Below, piece by piece: positions 55,437 through 58,210 of a DNA stretch of 62,259 nt; positions within the stretch are counted from its first letter, which is position 1, and the number at the start of each line of letters is the position of its first letter. The stretch is from positions 77,508 to 139,766 of the forward strand of contig PAQY01000018.1 in the NCBI GenBank assembly GCA_002709955.1, read 5' to 3'. Source of the stretch: Rhodospirillaceae bacterium. GTDB taxonomy: Bacteria > Pseudomonadota > Alphaproteobacteria > UBA8366 > Aestuariispiraceae. The position numbers and the translations under genes are program-made. Under the pieces are notes generated by a model that was not told where the DNA came from, made no database searches, and worked only from the letters and a program-made list of their open reading frames with translations.

Positions 55437-55858
55437 CGCCCTGGATCCCGGATCAAGTCTGGGATGACAACAATGGGGAACGCAAAGGGCGCGGGGAAAC
55501 GCAGAGGGCGCAAAGGCAAATACAAGCTCGTCTCTCCCGCGAAGGTGGGAGTCCAGGGCCGCACGCACCAAACGCGCTTTTTGCCCTGGATCCCGGATCA
55601 AGTCCGGGATGACGACAGAGGGGTACGCAGAGGGCGCGGGGAAACGCAGAGGGCGCTAAGGCAAATTCAGGCTCGTCTCTCCCGCGAAAGCGGGAGCCCA
55701 GGGCCGCACGCACTAAACGCGCTTTTTGCCCTGGATCCCGGATCAAGTCCGGGATGACCAACTTTTGAAACACCCCCCTCACCCTGAGGAGCGTAGCGTC
55801 TCGAAGGGTGACCTGCTGTAAGCACCCCACTCACAGCCCATCCTTCCAGACGGTGCTT
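55437..55858. repeat. Largest repeat cluster: three family B, two family C and one family A
   Basis: Family B palindromes are at 55437-55469, 55527-55615 and 55670-55759; the last two include the CTCCCGCGAAGGYGGGAG hairpin, so they are near-identical tandem units of about 85 bp separated by family C copies (55478-55518, 55617-55663). A family A copy truncated on its right side follows (55777-55858, ending CATCCTTCCAGACGG). The cluster lies between the MFS transporter and the SAM-II riboswitch. Confidence 0.85.
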
Positions 55859-55905
55859 AAATTATCCGCTTGACCCGGAAATCGTCATCCCTTATGCATC
55901 TACTC

Positions 55906-55959
55906 AGCGCCGATTTGAAGCTCAGCTTGCGGGCGCTTTATAAATGCAGCTAAAGAGGG
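55906..55959 (+). promoter_or_regulatory. SAM-II riboswitch aptamer
   Basis: The stretch has the SAM-II pattern. P1 is AGCGCC (55906-55911) with GGCGCT (55932-55937). Loop GATTTGAAG, then CAGCTTGC, matches the conserved loop. The 3' part TTTATAAATGCAGCTAAAG carries the invariant A-rich and GCTAAAG bases. Pseudoknot pairs are TTGC (55927-55930) with GCAG (55946-55949) and CTC (55921-55923) with GAG (55955-55957). It senses S-adenosylmethionine and lies upstream of metY. A strong terminator starts 12 bp later. Confidence 0.85.
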
Positions 55960-55970
55960 TTGGTCATCGC

Positions 55971-56003
55971 ACCGCCCGGCTATGCTGCGGCGGTTTTGTT
56001 TTT
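55971..56003 (+). terminator. Riboswitch-linked intrinsic terminator
   Basis: ACCGCC (55971-55976) pairs with GGCGGT (55989-55994). CGGC/GCTG extends the stem inside past one bulged C, with a 3-nt loop, and TTTTGTTTTT follows. CGCCCG of the 5' arm (55973-55978) can instead pair with CGGGCG (55930-55935) in the aptamer P1 region. This gives an antiterminator that excludes both P1 and the terminator. SAM binding would then favour termination. Confidence 0.8.
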
Positions 56004-56044
56004 CCGGGCCTTGGTTGCCTTGGAGAGTTCAAAATCTGACCGCT

Positions 56045-56100
56045 TCTGCTTTAGCGCCGCATTTATAAATCCCCGCAAGAGAACACTTTGGATCGACGCC
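56045..56100 (-). repeat. Degenerate inverted SAM-II-like copy
   Basis: Read on the minus strand the segment aligns with the aptamer at 55906-55959: GCG-CGAT, AAAG, CTTGCGGG, TTTATAAATGC and GCTAAAG occur in the same order and spacing. P1 no longer pairs and the loop GATTTGA is changed to GATCCAA, so it is probably non-functional. It looks like an inverted, decayed duplicate. Confidence 0.55.
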
Positions 56101-56138
56101 TTGGCGACCGGCCTGCTTTCATTCGGCACAGGGTCGCC

Positions 56139-56190
56139 CGCGGTGATTTGAGGATCAGCTTGCACCGCGTCATCAACTGCTAAAGCGACG
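56139..56190 (+). promoter_or_regulatory. Second SAM-II-like (or SAM-V) aptamer before metY
   Basis: P1 CGCGGT (56139-56144) pairs perfectly with ACCGCG (56164-56169). The loop GATTTGAGGATCAGCTTGC is nearly identical to that of the first aptamer, and ATCAACTGCTAAAG follows with the conserved GCTAAAG. The pseudoknot pairing is less obvious than in copy 1. It lies about 100 nt before the metY start. SAM-II/SAM-V tandems are known in marine alphaproteobacteria, so a SAM-V-like identity is possible. Confidence 0.65.
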
Positions 56191-56292
56191 TCAGGGAAGT
56201 CCTTTCATTCGGGACCTAGATTGGCGCAGATCCTCGCTGGAAACCCACTATGGAGCATTAAGGCTCCGACCTTAAAAATGGAGAAAGCGACG

Positions 56293-57609
56293 ATGACACA
56301 TACCCCGAAACATCCAGAAACCCTGGCCCTGCATGCCGGTTTTCGGTCTGACCCAGCCACCAATGCAGTGGCCGTGCCAATCTATCAGACAACATCCTAT
56401 CAGTTCGACAGCGCCGAACATGCCCAAAAGCTGTTCGCCCTGGAAGAATTGGGCAATATCTATACCCGCATCATGAACCCGACCGTGGATGTGCTGGAAA
56501 AACGCATCGCAGCCCTGGAAGGCGGCGTCGCGGCACTGGGTGTTGCATCCGGCCAGGCAGCGAGTGCCTATGCGGTTCAGAATATTGCTCGCGCTGGGGA
56601 CAATATCGTAAGCTCCACAAACCTTTATGGCGGAACATGGAACCTGTTTGCGAACACGCTGAAAGACCAGGGGATCGAGGTTCGCTTTGTCGATCCAACC
56701 GACCCTGAAGCGTTCCGGAAGGCCACAGATGACAAGACCCGGGCCTATTACGCCGAAACATTGCCCAATCCAAAGCTGGAGGTTTTCCCAATCGGAGAAG
56801 TCGCTGCCATCGGTCGCGAACTGGGCATTCCGTTGATTGTCGATAACACCGCCGCCCCGGTCCTGTGCCGCCCCTTCGATCATGGCGCAGCCATCATTGT
56901 CTATTCCACGACCAAGTATATCGGTGGTCACGGAACCTCTATCGGTGGGGCGATTGTCGACAGCGGCACCTTCCCCTGGGAAGACCACAAGGAACGCCAA
57001 CCCTATCTGAACCAGCCTGACCCCTCTTATCATGGGGCTGTCTGGACAGAGGCTGTGAAGCCGCTGGGACCGATTGCCTATATCATCAAGGCCCGCGTCA
57101 CCCTGTTGCGGGATCTGGGCGCGGCCTTGTCCCCCTATAATGCGTTCCAAATCATCCAAGGGCTGGAAACCCTGCCAATCCGCATTCGGGAACATTCCCG
57201 CAATGCCGCCGCTGTCGTTAATTTCCTGAACGAACACCCGCTTGTCGACCGCGTGATTTATCCCAATCACCAGAATGGCGAGAATTTGAAACGGGCCCAG
57301 ACCTATCTGAAAGGCGGATATGGTGGCTTGGTCGGGTTCCATATCAAAGGCGGCAAAGCAGCAGGCGCGGCCTTCATTGATGCCCTGGACCTGTTCTATC
57401 ACGTCGCCAATATTGGTGATGCGCGGTCCCTGGCAATCCACCCAGCCACCACCACCCATTCTCAGCTCAGCCTGGAAGAGCAGCATCAATCCGGGGTGAC
57501 AGACTCCTATATCCGGCTGTCGATCGGGATTGAACATATCGACGATATCATCGCTGACCTGACCCAGGCCCTGGCCGTTGCGGCCGATGCCGCACAAGCA
57601 GCAGCCTGA
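56293..57609 (+). CDS. metY: O-acetylhomoserine sulfhydrylase
   Basis: 438 residues of the Cys/Met metabolism PLP enzyme family. It makes homocysteine from O-acetylhomoserine and sulfide in methionine synthesis. The PLP lysine is Lys208 in YSTTKYIGGHG. The N-terminus PETLALHAGFRSD, LEELGNIYTRIMNPTVDVLE and the end HSQLSLEEQHQSGVTDSYIRLSIG are typical of MetY. ATG 56293 follows GGAGAA; earlier in-frame starts are unlikely. The leader with SAM-II elements fits feedback by SAM. It is followed by an OsmC gene after 25 bp. Confidence 0.95.
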   Translation: MTHTPKHPETLALHAGFRSDPATNAVAVPIYQTTSYQFDSAEHAQKLFALEELGNIYTRIMNPTVDVLEKRIAALEGGVAALGVASGQAASAYAVQNIARAGDNIVSSTNLYGGTWNLFANTLKDQGIEVRFVDPTDPEAFRKATDDKTRAYYAETLPNPKLEVFPIGEVAAIGRELGIPLIVDNTAAPVLCRPFDHGAAIIVYSTTKYIGGHGTSIGGAIVDSGTFPWEDHKERQPYLNQPDPSYHGAVWTEAVKPLGPIAYIIKARVTLLRDLGAALSPYNAFQIIQGLETLPIRIREHSRNAAAVVNFLNEHPLVDRVIYPNHQNGENLKRAQTYLKGGYGGLVGFHIKGGKAAGAAFIDALDLFYHVANIGDARSLAIHPATTTHSQLSLEEQHQSGVTDSYIRLSIGIEHIDDIIADLTQALAVAADAAQAAA

Positions 57610-57634: not shown

Positions 57635-58210
57635 ATGACAAGCACTCACACACACCCCCAAACAGCCGGACTGGGGGCTGTCTTTGACCATGTGGCAGAG
57701 ACCATCCGACACACCCCCGGAAAAGCCCTTGCACATTTCGAGGTGCAATCCCGCCAGGTCCGAGGGTTGCACAGCGAGGTCGAAGCCCGTGATTTCATAT
57801 TGACAGTGGATGAGCCGAAAGCTCTTGGCGGTCAGGATCTTGGGCCAAACCCTATAGAACTGATCTTGGCAGCGATCGCATCCTGTCAGGAAATCACCTA
57901 TCGCCTGTATGCAGATCGTCTTGGAATTCCGTTGAAGGGCGTGTCGGTTTCGGTAAAGGGGGATATTGACCTGCGGGGACTGTTTGCCTTGGATCCTGGT
58001 GTTCGACCCGGTCTCCGGGGACTGGATATTCAGGTGGATCTGGACAGCACGGCATCACAGGCAGAGTTGGACCGGTTGAAACGAACGGTCGATGCCCATT
58101 GTCCTGTGCTGGACATCATTCGCAACGCAACGCCGGTGATTGCCCGGACACAGCGTCAATCGGATGGATCCCCGATCGACACCCCTTTATTTGCGGGGTT
58201 GGCTGGATAA
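57635..58210 (+). CDS. OsmC-family peroxiredoxin-like protein
   Basis: 191 residues. The OsmC/Ohr fold uses two cysteines to reduce organic hydroperoxides; both are present in AAIASCQEITY and VDAHCPVLDII. An N-terminal extension of about 40 residues precedes the fold. AGGAGG lies 8 bp before ATG 57635. It is close behind metY and probably co-transcribed, which would place it under SAM control. A role in sulfur-compound redox chemistry is possible but inferred. Confidence 0.88.
   Translation: MTSTHTHPQTAGLGAVFDHVAETIRHTPGKALAHFEVQSRQVRGLHSEVEARDFILTVDEPKALGGQDLGPNPIELILAAIASCQEITYRLYADRLGIPLKGVSVSVKGDIDLRGLFALDPGVRPGLRGLDIQVDLDSTASQAELDRLKRTVDAHCPVLDIIRNATPVIARTQRQSDGSPIDTPLFAGLAG

Follow-up and report, generated by a model that had tools for sequence, protein, structure and literature searches.

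The window analysed here is a 62,259-nucleotide stretch from a Rhodospirillaceae bacterium, and the features described below lie on its plus strand. The metY gene (56293-57609; TIGR01326, 611.9 bits against a cut-off of 495.1) encodes O-acetylhomoserine aminocarboxypropyltransferase (sulfhydrylase), and the next gene on its 3′ side encodes an OsmC-like protein (57635-58210; PF02566, 72.3 bits). The leader upstream of metY contains two SAM-II-type aptamers, here called copy 1 and copy 2, with a terminator between them, as a first-pass annotation of this DNA had observed. GGAG at 56280-56283 is the likely Shine-Dalgarno sequence of metY. A putative promoter, read from the sequence, consists of TTGACC (55870-55875) and TATGCA (55893-55898) with a 17-nt gap; TTGAC also precedes copy 1 in nine relatives in a comparison of leaders, and a simple consensus scanner listed no plus-strand promoter at the leader. 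Short repeated stretches (cgcagagggcgc, ggatcccggatcaagtccgggatga) occur between the upstream gene and the leader, in 55500-55760. A CTTTCATTCGG motif flanks copy 2 on both sides (GCTTTCATTCGGC and CCTTTCATTCGGG; 56115-56127 and 56201-56213), and is also found, slightly altered, in relatives of the genus.

Copy 1 (55906-55959) is a canonical SAM-II aptamer. In a search of the whole window the Rfam model RF00521 (SAM_alpha) matched 55897-55974 with 42.8 bits (E 2.7e-6), above its gathering score of 36. P1 (55906-55911/55932-55937) appears in computed folds, and GCTAAA lies at 55949-55954. The intrinsic terminator (55971-56003) has a stem at 55971-55980/55984-55994 with one bulged C and the loop TAT, followed by TTTTGTTTTT; its hairpin is computed at -15.7 kcal/mol. 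The simple consensus scanner did not list it, and the bulge may be the reason. The terminator thus stands behind the first aptamer, as in tandem SAM-II leaders with two mechanisms; none was seen behind copy 2.

Structure of the second aptamer

The core of copy 2 (56139-56187) comprises P1 (56139-56144/56164-56169), GATTTGA, AGCTTGC and GCTAAAGCG. RF00521 matches it at 56130-56206, but the 26.4 bits fall short of the gathering score (E 0.00085 when 701 bases were searched). Against its own core model (14 sequences, 5 pairs) copy 2 scores 74.6 bits, being itself among the 14 seeds. The SAM-II segments P1, GATTTGA, GCTTGC and GCTAAA are present and aligned, and are invariant in five genus members. 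In canonical SAM-II the 3′ strand of the P2 pseudoknot lies directly behind GCTAAA. In copy 2 this strand instead follows an inserted hairpin, P3 (56189-56226; outer CGTCAG/TTGGCG, inner GTCC/GGAC), which sits between GCTAAAGCG and the displaced strand in a comparison with relatives. The pairing itself is present: GATCCTC (56229-56235) is complementary over seven pairs to GAGGATC (56150-56156) in the copy 2 loop. We refer to this helix as P2b. The annotation had called the element a second SAM-II-like aptamer; its pocket segments are indeed intact, but with the inserted hairpin and the displaced P2b strand it is not simply a second SAM-II. Judged by its sequence, copy 2 is a remodelled SAM-II in which P3 parts the pocket from the P2b 3′ strand.

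Among the five aligned genus members neither the pocket segments nor the two strands of P2b vary, while the interior of P3 has diverged; within the genus none of the 27 predicted pairs, P3 included, has changed on both sides. A consensus fold of these five members also contains a conserved helix between AGCGA (56184-56188) and UCGCU (56234-56238), which overlaps P2b and could compete with it in the window.

Copy 2 gave no match at E <= 10 to the SAM-V model (RF01826) in a search of 55700-56400. With SAM-II long loop (RF01726) copy 2 shares a SAM-II core with an extra hairpin, but that hairpin lies inside the P1 loop according to the structure line of the model, whereas the copy 2 hairpin is behind GCTAAAGCG; the RF01726 score is 18.6 bits against a cut-off of 44.

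Recurrence in relatives

We found RF00521 matches at E <= 0.05 in 33 of 59 genomes searched, counting the window's own. That genome has only copy 1, copy 2 and one 18-bit match at E <= 1. Among 14 control genomes, 10 have a match at E <= 1 and three at E <= 0.05; a score of 26 bits would therefore carry little weight by itself, and the evidence for copy 2 lies in its recurrence. Two matches less than 250 bases apart occur in eight of 14 genomes of the window's family, giving 10 pairs (one each in G000, G001, G002, G003, G005 and G011, two each in G008 and G013), and in five of six genomes of its genus. The other family genomes have a single match (G007, G012) or none (G004, G006, G009, G010). 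Two more pairs were found within the order (G021, G030). The recurrence of the pair in the family is more than chance.

At E <= 1e-4 the copy 2 core model hits 12 genomes out of 43 searched in the order and 81 out of 385 in the class. Matches of 49.5-79 bits were taken as the copy 2 form and those up to about 46 bits as canonical; by this score cut the form is present in 67 of the 385 class genomes, including the window's own and G003. Eighty of the other 83 class sites with at least 49.5 bits were fetched, which together with the family and named loci gave 99 copy-2-type sites, four pairs of these being identical over the leader. A canonical copy lies within 330 nt upstream in 36 of the 99, and none was found in the other 63, by a letter pattern that may miss some. 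Azospirillum brasilense Sp 7 carries the copy 2 form with P3, and in Azospirillum lipoferum 4B the form precedes an operon for a methionine ABC transporter, a hypothetical gene lying between the two. A search of viral contigs with the copy 2 core plus GCCACG gave no match. When 20 loci of the form were scanned with Rfam release 15 at E <= 0.1, the family reported was RF00521, and a single copy-2-type site exceeded its cut-off (L217, 36.8 bits); the other matches were one tRNA and two sub-threshold ones to unrelated families.

P2b of the copy 2 form is supported by covariation in relatives. Over 90 unique copy-2-type sites the sites' own pairs sum to 993.5, against 879.2 +- 20.0 when partners are swapped (0 of 2000 swaps); such swaps, here and below, ignore the phylogenetic tree, and common ancestry can raise z. 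The signal is found outside the GCCC type (z 5.9, 0/2000; 26 sites) and after stricter removal of similar sites (z 5.6, 0/2000; n=28), while inside the GCCC type P2b is nearly invariant and gives none (z -1.5, n=29). Pair types include GGGC/GCCC, GAGC/GCTC, GAGGG/CCCTC and GGGA/TCCC, with GAGGATC/GATCCTC in the window's genus. P3 takes the form GCCACG..CGTGG in 64 of the 99 sites. This motif served as a selection pattern, so the first five pairs of P3 are uninformative; at pairs 6 and 7 the letters change but pairing is largely retained.

The probable antiterminator of the first aptamer

The annotation had proposed that CGGGCG (55930-55935), overlapping the 3′ strand of P1, pairs with CGCCCG (55973-55978) in the terminator. 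Both strands are present and complementary. Covariation in relatives and folds of the window support another helix as the antiterminator of copy 1, between GCAGC (55946-55950), which overlaps GCTAAA of the SAM pocket, and GCTGC (55984-55988), inside the 3′ arm of the terminator. A loose canonical SAM-II pattern gave 80 matches in the fetched loci, of which 72 have a terminator by our own rule and 57 are unique, one copy-2-type site (L238) being among the 57; seven of the eight matches without a terminator are copy-2-type sites also caught by the loose pattern. Each copy's own pairing between aptamer and terminator was compared with that of partners swapped 2000 times. One clade, that of the window's copy 1, is marked by GCGCC in P1; here the final 12 nt of the aptamer fit the whole terminator (z 6.15, 0/2000; 24 non-redundant copies) and its loop and 3′ arm (z 5.05, 0/2000; n=22) better than swapped partners; outside this clade the fit to loop and 3′ arm is weak (z 1.6, 129/2000; 22 other copies). 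The same strand fits the terminator 5′ arm above chance too (z 3.8, 0/2000 in the clade; z 2.35, 21/2000 outside), so the exact partner is less certain than the strand. Across copies the supported helix appears as GCAGC/GCTGC, GCGGC/GCCGC and GCAGCTAA/TTAGCTGC, among others.

Computed folds depend on the transcript end. At 55990 the best fold has the GCAGC/GCTGC helix together with P1 (-31.1 kcal/mol, against -23.0 for the annotated helix); at 55994 the values are -31.1 for GCAGC/GCTGC, -28.1 for the annotated helix and -32.1 for the terminator; and at 56003 a plain fold without SAM puts the terminator slightly ahead (-32.4 against -31.1), so the switch would rest on timing. A second candidate antiterminator helix seen in window folds, between a GGG behind the aptamer and GCCC of the terminator, was dropped for lack of covariation (z -0.44, 1346/2000 in the GCGCC clade; z 1.07, 297/2000 outside).

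That the P1 3′ strand at 55930-55935 is the antiterminator strand after all, with P1 stabilised by SAM freeing the terminator, we consider unlikely. Its six GC pairs exist, and over all 57 unique canonical copies with a terminator they give a signal (z 3.7, 0/2000) that may reflect clade differences. Within the GCGCC clade the signal is absent (z 0.3, 1001/2000; n=24), although the helix is nearly invariant there and the null result is thus no disproof. This helix also breaks P1, and for that reason lies 4.0, 8.1, 4.0 and 4.2 kcal/mol above the best fold at transcript ends 55985, 55990, 55994 and 56003. Mutual exclusion of P1 and antiterminator, the switch originally envisaged, is not required: GCAGC/GCTGC covaries while keeping P1 intact, and P1 itself need not be the switching element. 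Less probable again is a constitutive terminator, copy 1 having some other role as reported for Sinorhizobium meliloti metA. Such a terminator is described downstream of the metA SAM-II riboswitch in PMC9373788, and the free fold of our leader already contains the terminator, but the covarying antiterminator strand overlaps the SAM pocket. We therefore favour GCAGC/GCTGC; as its 5′ strand shares letters with GCTAAA, SAM binding should remove this antiterminator directly.

Targets and predicted sign of the second aptamer

Family searches at selected loci placed metY, metZ, metA, metF, metE and metN behind copy-2-type leaders (all but metY with scores below the NCBI curated cut-offs, and the metZ, metE and metN proteins clipped by the end of the fetched stretch). 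Further genes behind the form are cysG or its methylase part, and those for sulfate-binding protein, sulfite or nitrite reductase, DUF2849 and OsmC-like proteins; the proteins of L268 and L225 gave no family in this search. These targets are biosynthetic or uptake genes, for which repression by SAM is expected.

Of the 64 GCCACG..CGTGG sites, 59 have a called first ORF, and the median distance from P3 to its start codon is 29 nt, with two outliers beyond 130. With redundant sites removed, which leaves 55, the P3 3′ arm fits its own downstream region (6-50 nt) better than swapped ones (z 6.7, 0/2000). The P2b strand and loop show no such fit (z 0.2 and -0.8, same 55 sites). The effect comes from the 29 sites of the GCCC type (z 5.75) and is missing from the other 26 (z 0.8). 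After strict removal of similar sites it is modest (z 2.65, 30/2000; n=11), and against the region 60-104 nt downstream it is absent (z -0.8). The P3 5′ arm, taken as a control, is weakly positive (z 1.5, 156/2000 over the 55 sites; z 2.45, 25/2000, n=26, and z 2.07, 62/2000, n=11, in reduced sets), and similarity shared among the sites may therefore account for some of the anti-Shine-Dalgarno signal. The window has 57 nt between the end of its P2b 3′ strand and the metY start codon, and inspection found no long match between the P3 3′ arm and GGAG; the arrangement of the compact relatives thus seems not to extend to the window. A candidate SAM-free helix, in which sequence ahead of P1 of copy 2 would pair with the 3′ arm of P3 and the P2b strand, is striking at some loci but was dropped for lack of covariation (z 0.24, 839/2000).

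Shine-Dalgarno access was modelled for 49 of the 55 sites, six being dropped for want of a usable start or P1. With P1, P2b and P3 imposed, access rose in 17 of the 23 sites of the GCCC type and fell in none; among the 26 others it rose in 16 and fell in three. With P1 and P2b only, it rose in 10 GCCC-type and 15 other sites and fell in four and three. This modelling suggests release, the opposite sign to repression, and is given little weight since imposing structure tends to free other strands.

Copy 2 might be a translational ON element, in which SAM-bound P2b and P3 hold the anti-Shine-Dalgarno strand and leave the ribosome site free; copies 1 and 2 would then form an incoherent pair. In the GCCC-type relatives, where the Shine-Dalgarno region finds its partner in the P3 3′ arm, forming P3 should release that region, and the modelled access points the same way. 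We find this doubtful for the window: inspection shows no match between its P3 and Shine-Dalgarno sequence, the signal among relatives shrinks under strict filtering, and the targets identified call for repression. Very improbable, in our estimate, is that copy 2 is a decaying duplicate without function. Its sub-threshold Rfam score would suit such a duplicate, but the pocket and P2b strands have stayed invariant in the genus despite the diverged P3 interior, and the form is found across the class, at most collected sites with no canonical copy found upstream. We thus lean towards repression of metY by SAM at copy 2, with translation as the predicted target. For the form at large, a question is posed by targets that suggest repression by SAM and a geometry of P3 and anti-Shine-Dalgarno strand that suggests release.

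Proposed control of metY and known systems

With fair confidence we propose a two-stage SAM brake on metY, in which copy 1 attenuates transcription and copy 2 most likely controls translation. At low SAM, GCAGC would pair with GCTGC in the terminator and RNA polymerase would read through. With SAM on copy 1, the aptamer would take up the GCAGC strand, allowing the terminator to form and transcription to stop near 56003. Transcripts that escape would carry copy 2. Since this aptamer precedes the metY start and no terminator was seen to follow it, its most likely role is to govern ribosome access to metY. SAM binding by either copy, and a response of termination to SAM, are predictions of this model.

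Several published systems resemble this leader. metY is given as the core SAM-II target (PMC4239095), and the leader shares a methionine-gene target and a terminator with SAM-II (RF00521; PMC1273637), whose P1, GATTTGA, GCTTGC, GCTAAA and pseudoknot P2 recur in copy 2; P3 between GCTAAAGCG and the P2b 3′ strand sets copy 2 apart from RF00521. The statement in the annotation that most SAM-II elements act on translation is at odds with PMC2258182 and PMC1273637, which tie SAM-II in alpha-proteobacteria mainly to terminators. Forty-four tandem SAM-II cases have been reported, some with a terminator after the first aptamer, and in some the second aptamer appears to regulate access to the ribosome-binding site (PMC9481103). 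The architecture of terminator first and ribosome-binding-site platform second is therefore not new, and the tandem before metY is a further case of it, with two SAM-II aptamers and the terminator behind the first. The assignment of copy 1 to transcription and of copy 2 to a later step, made in the annotation, is reasonable and matches this arrangement (PMC9481103), and we keep it as a proposal. The SAM-II/SAM-V tandem of marine bacteria likewise has the terminator first and the second aptamer near the ribosome-binding site (PMC9481103); our leader differs from it in that copy 2 gives no SAM-V match. The SAM-II section and other passages of PMC9481103 make no mention of a separate subtype of the second aptamer, of a hairpin inserted into it or of displacement of its P2b strand. 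No description of a hairpin insertion in SAM-II was found in the literature consulted, which was mostly short of full text.

For S. meliloti metZ, a SAM-II aptamer is predicted to cause termination, a short RNA of matching size was seen, and this short terminated RNA is more abundant in the medium used as the high-SAM condition (PMC9373788). This agrees with attenuation by a SAM-II element. The part of PMC9373788 available mentions no second aptamer for metZ, whereas the window has two.

Short reading frames and a possible wider subtype

A first ORF was called at 89 of the 99 copy-2-type sites. In 43 it is no longer than 50 codons, and 26 of these short ORFs have at least two cysteines, frequently in runs of CC or CCC close to the end. 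They resemble cysteine leader peptides placed after a SAM sensor. Loci with short cysteine ORFs include L049, L216, L243, L248, L253-L257, L260-L262, L264 and L266, and the same kind of short ORF was read by eye in Azospirillum (L278, L279).

Copy 2 may belong to a widespread, undescribed alphaproteobacterial subtype of SAM-II, in which P3 links the pocket to P2b, the P3 3′ arm is anti-Shine-Dalgarno in many members, and the aptamer stands just ahead of cysteine-rich short leader ORFs in several lineages including Azospirillum, where a single leader may sense SAM as well as the supply of cysteine; we give this proposal about even chances. Since most copy-2-type matches at the 20 loci scanned fall below the Rfam threshold, SAM control may be under-annotated across Alphaproteobacteria. 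Targets possibly affected are sulfate uptake, sulfite reductase, siroheme and methionine genes, including those of the tractable A. brasilense.

In the linker after the terminator, the segment 56048-56079 carries complements of both aptamers: of the copy 1 3′ half (GCATTTATAAA, CCCGCAAG) and of GCTAAAGC in copy 2. Four of the five genus leaders share CCCGCAAG, as does L117; L116 and L122 have CCGCAAG. The per-locus support for the complement to copy 1 is marginal, the numbers of shuffles of 2000 reaching it being 57 for the window, 68 for L113, 109 for L114, 184 for L115, 89 for L116 and 6 for L117; with a slightly different terminator-end rule they were 286 for L122, 744 for L118, 943 for L120 and 77 for L124.

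At four loci a tandem of canonical and remodelled aptamer precedes siroheme genes in place of metY: L119 and L123 (both cysG), and L125 and L126 (both uroporphyrinogen methyltransferase), the gene identity coming from family search for L119 and L125 and from a similar start for L123 and L126. In G001, a member of the window's genus, the search for metY gave no close relative, the best match having 50% identity, but the tandem leader is kept whole directly before the OsmC-like gene (L113, 645-1625).
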